Positions 25,743 to 26,584 of a DNA stretch of 64,000 bases are shown in pieces. The number at the start of each line of letters is the position of its first letter. Position 1 is the first letter of the stretch. The notes under the pieces are model-generated. The model worked only from the letters and a program-made list of their open reading frames with translations, did no database searches and was not told the DNA's origin. The position numbers were made by a program, and so were the translations under genes. Source of the stretch: Porphyrobacter sp. LM 6 (GTDB lineage Bacteria > Pseudomonadota > Alphaproteobacteria > Sphingomonadales > Sphingomonadaceae); contig NZ_CP017113.1 of the NCBI RefSeq assembly GCF_001720465.1, positions 2,356,001-2,420,000 of the forward strand. The letters run 5' to 3'.

Positions 25743-25747
25743 GTTTG

Positions 25748-25847
25748 CGAACCCGCCTCCGCGGGTTCGTCCTCGGCGCTGTTTCTGCCGCTGTGCGGCA
25801 GAGCGCCTGCGGGGCGGCCGCGTGGCCTTGCGGACCCTGCGGGTCCG
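25748..25847 (+). repeat. Covarying hairpin repeat, copy A
   Basis: About 100 bases with four elements in order: stem CGAACCCGC/GCGGGTTCG with loop CTCC (25748-25769); the constant block TCCTCGGCGCTGTTT; stem GGCC/GGCC with loop GCGT (25816-25827); and stem CGGACCC/GGGTCCG with loop TGC (25831-25847). Copies B and C share the loops and the constant block but have different stem sequences that still pair. Confidence 0.8.
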
Positions 25848-25874
25848 ATCCTACTACTGATGGTCAAGGGCCTT

Positions 25875-25972
25875 CGGGCCACAGGCCCGCGAGCGCACGC
25901 GCGCGAGCCGCAGGCGCTCCGGAGCGCAGCGAAGGAAACAGCGCCGAGGACGCTCGCCCGGAGGGGCGAGCG
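25875..25972 (-). repeat. Covarying hairpin repeat, copy B (inverted)
   Basis: Read on the minus strand: stem CGCTCGCCC/GGGCGAGCG with loop CTCC (25972-25951), constant block TCCTCGGCGCTGTTT, stem GCGC/GCGC with loop GCGT (25904-25893), and stem CGGGCC/GGCCCG with loop TGT (25889-25875). It is tail to tail with copy A. Confidence 0.8.
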
Positions 25973-26062
25973 AAACACCAAGACTCCACCGATTCTATAC
26001 ATTAATATCCACAGGCCCATGCACAGGGCATCCCCAGCCTGTCCACACCCGCCCCCGAAACG

Positions 26063-26124: not shown

Positions 26125-26190
26125 ATGACGCGGGAAAAGAAATATACAAGTCTTGTGGAAGCCCCCGCGATGAATCACATTGTGCCTTGA
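26125..26190 (+). CDS. Possible 21-residue small protein
   Basis: An ATG-to-TGA frame encoding MTREKKYTSLVEAPAMNHIVP lies in the gene-poor region. There is only a weak purine-rich stretch (GCGAGCGAAG) upstream. The frame contains the inverted repeat ACAAG-T-CTTGT (26146-26156). This is a low-confidence small ORF listed because the region otherwise has no gene explanation. Confidence 0.2.
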   Translation: MTREKKYTSLVEAPAMNHIVP

Positions 26191-26266
26191 GGCCAGCGGC
26201 GAACGCGGCTCTCGGCCCCCGGTGATGCGGCGGGTCTGGCTCACAAGCGCGAAAGGAGGTGATCCG

Positions 26267-26323
26267 ATGTCTCATGGTTCAGTAGCGAGGTCGGTGAAGA
26301 TCCCTACGGAGCATACTCGGTAA
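26267..26323 (+). CDS. 18-codon small ORF with exceptionally long ribosome binding site
   Basis: The ATG at 26267 is preceded by GAAAGGAGGTGATCC (26251-26265), which is complementary over 15 bases to the 3' end of bacterial 16S rRNA (GGATCACCTCCTTTC). The frame encodes MSHGSVARSVKIPTEHTR and stops at TAA 26321-26323. It is followed by hairpins ACTCGG/CTGAGT (26315-26338) and AGCGGC/GCCGCT (26350-26368) and a strong terminator. It may be a real small protein, a leader peptide, or a ribosome-binding small RNA. Residue content does not suggest classical branched-chain attenuation of ilvE. Confidence 0.5.
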   Translation: MSHGSVARSVKIPTEHTR

Positions 26324-26378
26324 TCCTCTTGTCTGAGTAAGGCTTCGTGAGCGGCACTTCCGGCCGCTGACCATGTCA

Positions 26379-26415
26379 AGGGCAGCTTCCCGACGGGCGA
26401 AGCTGCCCTTTTCAT
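26379..26415 (+). terminator. Strong plus-strand terminator after the 18-codon ORF
   Basis: AGGGCAGCTTC (26379-26389) pairs perfectly with GAAGCTGCCCT (26399-26409) across a nine-base loop, followed by TTTTCATTT. It closes a transcript of roughly 150-200 bases that carries the 18-codon ORF and separates it from ilvE. Confidence 0.85.
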
Positions 26416-26430
26416 TTGCGCTCTTGTTTG

Positions 26431-26528
26431 TGTGCCCGCCTCCGCGGGCACATCCTCGGTGCTGTTTCCTTCGCTGCGCTCCGGAGCACCTGCGGCTCGG
26501 CCGCGTGGCCTCGCGGGCCTACGGCCCG
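26431..26528 (+). repeat. Covarying hairpin repeat, copy C
   Basis: Stem TGTGCCCGC/GCGGGCACA with loop CTCC (26431-26452), block TCCTCGGTGCTGTTT, stem GGCC/GGCC with loop GCGT (26499-26510), and stem CGGGCC/GGCCCG with loop TAC (26514-26528). It follows the small-ORF terminator and ends 57 bases before the ilvE start. Confidence 0.8.
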
Positions 26529-26584
26529 AAATCCCGCCAAAGAGTGATCTTGCCCTGAGAGGCGCGCAGGATTAGGCGCATTCC

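Follow-up and report, generated by a model that had tools for sequence, protein, structure and literature searches.

A small stand-alone gene in the stretch of DNA analysed here (64,000 nucleotides from Porphyrobacter sp. LM 6, referred to as the window) carries, directly ahead of a tiny open reading frame (ORF), a sequence exactly complementary to the free 3′ tail of 16S rRNA. The gene is related to Rfam family RF01867 (CC2171). This family, filed as a Caulobacter sRNA, has homologues in many Alphaproteobacteria, with an antisense copy of the 16S tail. Tentatively, and with a confidence that falls somewhat short of even, we read the product as a ribosome-engaged regulatory RNA in which translation is conserved and the peptide is not. 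The features on which this reading is based are the following.

26146-26156, + strand: palindrome ACAAGTCTTGT with a -35-like CTTGT, in the putative promoter region (alignment consensus)
26172-26176, + strand: GAATC, a GANTC (CcrM-type) site in the promoter region (enrichment against an upstream control)
26251-26265, + strand: GAAAGGAGGTGATCC, 15-nt exact complement of the 16S rRNA 3′ free tail, an extended Shine–Dalgarno sequence (sequence, whole-genome count, duplex energy)
26267-26323, + strand: 18-codon ORF MSHGSVARSVKIPTEHTR with stop codon TAA at 26321-26323 (conserved start and stop, amino acid sequence not conserved)
26273-26279, + strand: 5′ strand of helix P1, within codons 3-5 (partner-permutation test)
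26305-26349, + strand: hairpin P2, over the ORF end and the stop codon (six double-change pairs in 18 sequences)
26350-26368, + strand: hairpin P3, AGCGGC...GCCGCT (in the consensus; nearly invariant and so uninformative)
26369-26375, + strand: 3′ strand of helix P1, directly before the terminator (partner-permutation test)
26378-26416, + strand: intrinsic terminator with a 12-bp stem (26378-26389 with 26399-26410) and a T-rich tail (eight double-change pairs)

Complementarity to the 16S rRNA Tail

The 16S rRNA of the source genome ends in ...GGATCACCTCCTTTCTAAGGATA. If its mature 3′ end lies where we take it to be from general knowledge, the 15-nt complement spans the free tail bar the last base or so. 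The exact 15-mer is found at two sites in the whole genome, i.e., at 26251-26265 and on the antisense strand of the 16S 3′ end, and it is unique in the 64-kb window, which bears out the perfect match claimed in a sequence-only reading of this DNA. When up to three mismatches are allowed, the window holds four matches against 1.42 expected, a number reached by 2 of 100 shuffles. The predicted duplex with the tail at 26251-26265 (-29.9 kcal/mol) ranks first among the 5,176 ATG, GTG and TTG triplets of the window. The runner-up among these triplets (-25.7) lies a few bases inside the same 18-codon ORF, and for the 47 long ORFs of the window the best value is -14.1 and the median -8.4. According to folding, the binding site is unpaired about half (0.54-0.57). 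In a check for covariation between the element and 16S rRNA, the 16S tail was retrieved by the search pattern in 2 of 27 genomes and read CCTCCTTTCTAAGG in both; in one of these two, the element matches 14 of the 15 bases, with no corresponding change in the 16S rRNA.

Two origins of the match were considered and rejected. A chance match is ruled out by the genome-wide uniqueness, the shuffles and the reversed-pattern controls described below. An antisense remnant of an rRNA gene is ruled out because the match ends at the tail, the window holds no rRNA and the frame of the ORF is kept.

Start and Stop of the Tiny ORF

The ATG of the 18-codon ORF begins one base after the tail match, in line with the correct spacing noted in the sequence-only reading, and the frame closes with the TAA at 26321-26323. 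With the first base of the start codon left free, the 119 matches listed have ATG in 60 cases, GTG in 56, TTG in three and CTG in none; in an 80-locus subset of the matches listed, the counts are 43 for GTG, 36 for ATG, one for TTG and none for CTG. Reading frames were compared in 195 unique elements out of 212 found, whose sequences are related so that the counts represent non-independent events. Frame 0 has no stop before codon 14 and closes in all 195, with an ORF length of 14-36 codons in 194 and of 59 codons in L188. Frames 1 and 2 run into a stop before codon 14 in 96 and 71 of the 195 elements and are unclosed within the stretch in 15 and 22, respectively. The element with the 59-codon ORF comes from Azospirillum and may be a different kind of gene. 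A stop stands at codon 19 in 57 of 60 Sphingomonadales-type sequences (TAA 38, TGA 18, TAG 1) and in 19 of 19 Rhodobacterales-type sequences (TGA 8, TAG 8, TAA 3), and TGG is absent from this position in both sets.

The amino acids follow another pattern. The pN/pS ratio is 1.32 for 39 distinct 18-codon ORFs and 0.90 for another 19, compared with 0.73 and 0.54, and 0.67 and 0.84, in the shifted-frame controls; these ratios are a rough guide only, because they are influenced by RNA pairing. No purifying selection on the amino acids is seen by pN/pS in these two sets. Little besides Met-Ser recurs among peptides of different types. The Ser was partly forced by the search patterns; where these left the position free, it is present in 31 of 33 distinct ORFs. 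A type I toxin mRNA would encode a hydrophobic peptide and be accompanied by an antisense RNA; by eye, the peptides among the matches listed are not strongly hydrophobic. Several SS-type peptides (L083, L086, L087, L102, L207 and others) share an (E/G)QP(S/L) motif near their ends. Altogether, start and stop of the ORF are conserved and the peptide sequence is not; the conserved start and stop suggest that the candidate ORF is translated. Of what the sequence-only reading had expected to find conserved in relatives, the binding site, together with start and stop, is so and the peptide is not.

Fold of the RNA

The RNAalifold consensus of 18 relatives contains the two hairpins and the terminator that had been noticed in the single sequence. 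Double changes occur in 15 of its 46 pairs: six in P2, eight in the terminator, one in a local pairing of the binding site and none in P3. In this Sphingomonadales-type alignment P1 is invariant, and RNAalifold favors the local pairing, which takes in the start codon and part of the binding site. P1 and this local pairing may be alternative states.

P1 was judged by comparison across types, with a focused test on 77 distinct versions of the 5′ strand. These came from 197 elements with a terminator hairpin out of 211; the 14 elements left out had no detected terminator hairpin or too little preceding sequence. The score of 11.36 for own partners, compared with 8.25 for swapped partners, is reached in none of 20,000 permutations, at a site that was picked after earlier results had been seen. 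This test was relied on over an earlier scan of a wide region, which had given a modest excess (16.4 vs 14.8). Compensated pairs include TCATTGTC/GACAATGG, CATGGTC/GACCATG, CATGAAT/ATTCATG, ATGAGATT/AATCTCAT and CGAGATC/GATCTCG, and in 30 of the 77 types the helix at that place has at most 4 bp.

A possible local hairpin at the start codon, P0, was examined as well. CTGGAT is found in 18 of 65 AG-type ORFs against 0.8 expected from mononucleotide shuffling. GTCGG is found in 37 of 55 GA-type ORFs against 6.1 expected, yet TCGG also occurs in 47 of 65 AG-type ORFs against 23.1 expected. One sequence has a compensating pair, and swapping partners between types leaves the pairing score undiminished. 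As a guess, pairing of CTGGAT to the binding site could explain the Trp shared by some of the peptides.

Relation to RF01867 and Spread Across Genomes

At Rfam gathering thresholds, a single tRNA is all that is reported in the window. With permissive filters, 26244-26409 aligns to RF01867 model positions 1-159 with 42.8 bits (E 1.1e-7). The copy in the window is best regarded as a divergent homologue of RF01867 and not as a member, since its score lies below the gathering cut-off of 75 bits. This cut-off is passed by 7 of 15 related loci examined; none of 18 loci of other types has a passing match at the element. A reciprocal model, R1, was built from the 18 Sphingomonadales-type copies. It matches all seven loci that pass the RF01867 cut-off, with E-values from 4.5e-10 to 2.3e-4 on a rough calibration, and gives a full-length match in 33 of 37 element loci. 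At L045, L083 and L086 R1 finds nothing, at L188 it finds a piece of the terminator only, and in the 16S-bearing L002 and L293 it has no match. RF01867 and the window copy have in common GAAAGGAGGUGAUCC, the start region UGUCUCAU, the long-range helix and the terminator; the window copy differs in its interior and in its 18-codon ORF of other sequence. RF01867 is on file as 'Gene; sRNA', whereas a kept ORF start and stop are seen here.

The pattern AAGGAGGTGRTCBNDTGTC, which describes a 13-base near form of the site and the start of the ORF, occurs in 77 of 318 genomes of the class (reversed control 0 of 318), at a single place in 76 of them and at two in one (G052); the other 241 sampled class genomes have no match to it. 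G052 holds one copy of the Sphingomonadales type and another that is CC2171-like, with 68.9 bits, far apart (L094, L114). The shorter AAGGAGGTGRTCBNDTG was found in 40 of 63 same-class genomes (reversed control 1 of 63) vs 6 of 136 other Pseudomonadota (reversed control 4 of 136), so that in Pseudomonadota outside the class the element is near background. A strict pattern with a CAY codon occurs in 16 of 289 class genomes. At E 0.01 the RF01867 model has matches in 79 of 318 class genomes, 11 of them above the cut-off and some without the motif, and in 2 of 14 named controls, i.e., Caulobacter vibrioides and Deinobacterium chartae. The match in D. chartae was taken as chance, as were the weak matches without the motif (L099, L101, L106, L110-L113, L115); a second site in the source genome is among these, and none of them enters the motif-based counts.

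The named pattern scan gave at least 119 stretches, 80 of which are listed with titles. The titles among these matches listed include Sphingomonadales, Rhodobacterales, Rhizobiales, Acetobacterales, Caulobacterales, Azospirillum, Inquilinus and several metagenome-assembled genomes (MAGs). One MAG among the matches listed is labelled Gemmatimonadetes. DNA similarity reaches less far: 25 of 41 genomes match, namely the own genome and 24 of the same genus, and not one of the 16 further genomes from the order. One same-genus relative out of the 24 (G007; L026/L028), whose assembly is fragmented into about 230 contigs, lacks the binding site and almost the whole ORF as far as the stop codon but retains promoter, hairpins, terminator and flanks; this deletion may be real or an assembly error.

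Promoter and Neighboring Genes

A CAAG.CTTG consensus stands out in the putative promoter region of the Sphingomonadales-type alignment (42 sequences among the matches listed). The palindrome followed at a set spacing by GANTCA has one site in five of six genomes, and two in the sixth (G021), where one reversed-control match occurs as well. A regulon sharing the promoter palindrome was rejected, as the combination is found only at this gene in five of the six genomes. GANTC is present in the promoter region, compared with an upstream control, in 48 vs 20 of 56 Sphingomonadales-type sequences, in 20 vs 1 of 55 of the SHC/SHR types, in 9 vs 3 of 45 of the SS type, in 2 vs 0 of 19 of the SR type and in 17 vs 5 of 33 others. 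GANTC methylation may have a role at these promoters and, given the part that such sites play in the CcrM/GcrA system, their presence hints at cell-cycle control. In types other than the Sphingomonadales one, a CTTGAC-like -35 element is often located close upstream, and the leader is often CAACAA.

Downstream, an Aminotran_4 (ilvE-type) gene begins 169 bases beyond the terminator region. A survey of neighboring genes, using mechanical ORFs from 189 contexts, gave 73 clusters of at least two members. Fifty of these are confined to one element type, including the four largest, which are all of the Sphingomonadales type and two of which represent the ilvE side; the 23 clusters that span element types have at most eight members each. 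A phage or plasmid origin was rejected, as blastn gave no match in either collection. GC-rich palindromic stretches that resemble each other lie on both sides of the gene, at about 25745-25990 and 26430-26530 (CCCGCCTCCGCGGG, nearby GCTGTTTC), and similar pieces follow the terminator in several relatives.

Proposed Function and Alternatives

Comparison between genomes supports the tail match, the start, the stop, P1, the spread, the single copy and the independence from ilvE. In the reading that we tentatively favor, the gene would be transcribed in the source organism from its own promoter to its own terminator, giving a short RNA of about 165-230 nt as estimated from the sequence. A 30S subunit would dock on the antisense copy of its tail, with tighter binding than all other start sites of the window offer, and would begin the ORF one base downstream of the match. 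The peptide would be a by-product; what is kept is the dock, the start, the reading of a short ORF (18 codons here) and the stop. Since P1 ties codons 3-5 to the terminator base, it would have to be opened by a ribosome that docks or moves there. Ribosome engagement would thus be the input of this RNA. Its output would be how the remaining RNA folds, how stable it is or how it pairs, and through this a downstream effect would be exerted. Extended pairing near a start codon is compatible with initiation in Staphylococcus aureus, according to the available text of PMC13009471. A more specific version of the proposal, possible though more doubtful, is that of a dedicated, mostly single-copy ribosome-sensing RNA common to Alphaproteobacteria, which captures the 30S subunit via the whole tail, and in which translation of a short ORF of no fixed sequence opens P1, reads out free-ribosome or initiation capacity and switches the stability or pairing of the RNA itself.

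Among the alternatives, a 30S decoy comes first, although we consider it unlikely. Here, the RNA would sequester or buffer free 30S subunits via their tail and the ORF would be incidental. Such a role, named earlier as a ribosome-sequestering RNA, fits a widespread 15-nt match that covers the free tail far past the usual core, and a stand-alone terminator; P1, lying inside the region occupied by the 30S subunit, could even hinder initiation. It leaves the kept start and stop unexplained: a pure decoy has no need of ATG, GTG or TTG starts, with CTG never seen, nor of a stop at a set codon for which all three stop codons are used. Ribosome profiling in Caulobacter describes intergenic ncRNA regions as not translated, in a text whose accessible part does not name CC2171 (PMC4117421); if this is valid for the present RNA, the decoy would be favored.

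The ORF may also encode a functional, fast-evolving small protein produced at a high level, which seems a good deal less probable. The suggestion of a highly translated small protein gains support as far as translation goes, as start, frame and stop are kept. In the accessible text of PMC10117765, the 23-aa SEP1 of Sinorhizobium meliloti has the top translation efficiency among new small ORFs; it is not tied to this family. Function at the level of the protein is unlikely because of the pN/pS ratios of 1.32 and 0.90, and between types little but Met-Ser recurs, of which the Ser is partly forced by the search patterns.

A role as a sponge, by which sRNAs with loops of the CCUCCU type would be bound, is improbable. 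Such sRNAs exist in alphaproteobacteria, to judge from the parts of two papers that were available (PMC3927594; PMC12559287), and would pair with AGGAGG, but the conserved match reaches over TGATCC and GAAA, an extent that fits the 16S tail but no CCUCCU loop, and a sponge would have no use for a start or stop codon. Even less credit can be given to a guide or shield for maturation of the 16S 3′ end, which would pair with the mature tail and leave the precursor bases single-stranded for a single-strand-specific nuclease such as YbeY. The match does stop roughly one base before the expected mature end, and S. meliloti YbeY is single-strand specific in the part of PMC6943124 that was available, but the ORF would be superfluous and no genetic link is seen. 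The Aminotran_4 gene 169 bases past the terminator region would fit a leader, as had been proposed, or attenuator of ilvE, but this can practically be dismissed: transcription would end at the gene's own terminator, the ilvE-side clusters adjoin Sphingomonadales-type copies only and the MSHGSVARSVKIPTEHTR peptide has no run of Ile, Leu or Val codons.

Comparison with Known Systems

The element had been put forward as undescribed. This may hold for the tail match, the ORF and the spread of the CC2171 family, of which no description was found in the literature searched, partial texts included and with the original report (Landt 2008) and supplements outside its scope; it does not hold for the RNA as such, given the homology to RF01867. 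This homology, the spread, helix P1 and the contrast between a conserved start and stop and an unconserved peptide go beyond what the sequence-only reading had noticed. A search for CC2171 together with Caulobacter returned no paper. In the portions of the sources available, the Rfam 15 paper mentions RF01867, to which R-scape contributed one additional covarying pair (PMC11701678), and the family appears in a list of Mesorhizobium sRNAs (PMC5596092). CC2171 is absent from the main text, as far as available, of a survey of coding sRNAs that was restricted to AUG starts (PMC5521070).

Three known systems resemble the element in part. In S. aureus, extended Shine–Dalgarno sites likewise pair beyond the core close to the start codon (PMC13009471, available text). 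There, extended pairing is found on many ordinary mRNAs, whereas here the whole tail is matched by one stand-alone small RNA. The dual-function sRNA and leader peptide rnTrpL/peTrpL is alike in having a short ORF on a small RNA (PMC10117765, text available in part). According to the same partial text, rnTrpL is leaderless, encodes a functional peptide and derives from the trpE 5′-UTR, whereas the present RNA combines a maximal binding site with an unconserved peptide. Lastly, α-r8/SisA-D and SmelA075 are widespread small RNAs built around the Shine–Dalgarno/anti-Shine–Dalgarno pair as well (PMC12559287; PMC3927594, in the parts available). They carry the anti-Shine–Dalgarno sequence, whereas the polarity is opposite here, with a Shine–Dalgarno sequence that matches the 16S tail; the conserved segment is GGAGG, the complement of the CCUCC motif by which anti-Shine–Dalgarno sRNAs are recognized. 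In Caulobacter, Shine–Dalgarno sites are present at only 24.6% of genes, as stated in the accessible text of PMC4117421. The element would be a candidate for an RNA by which ribosomes are measured or buffered, in a class of which one member, Caulobacter, seldom uses Shine–Dalgarno sites.
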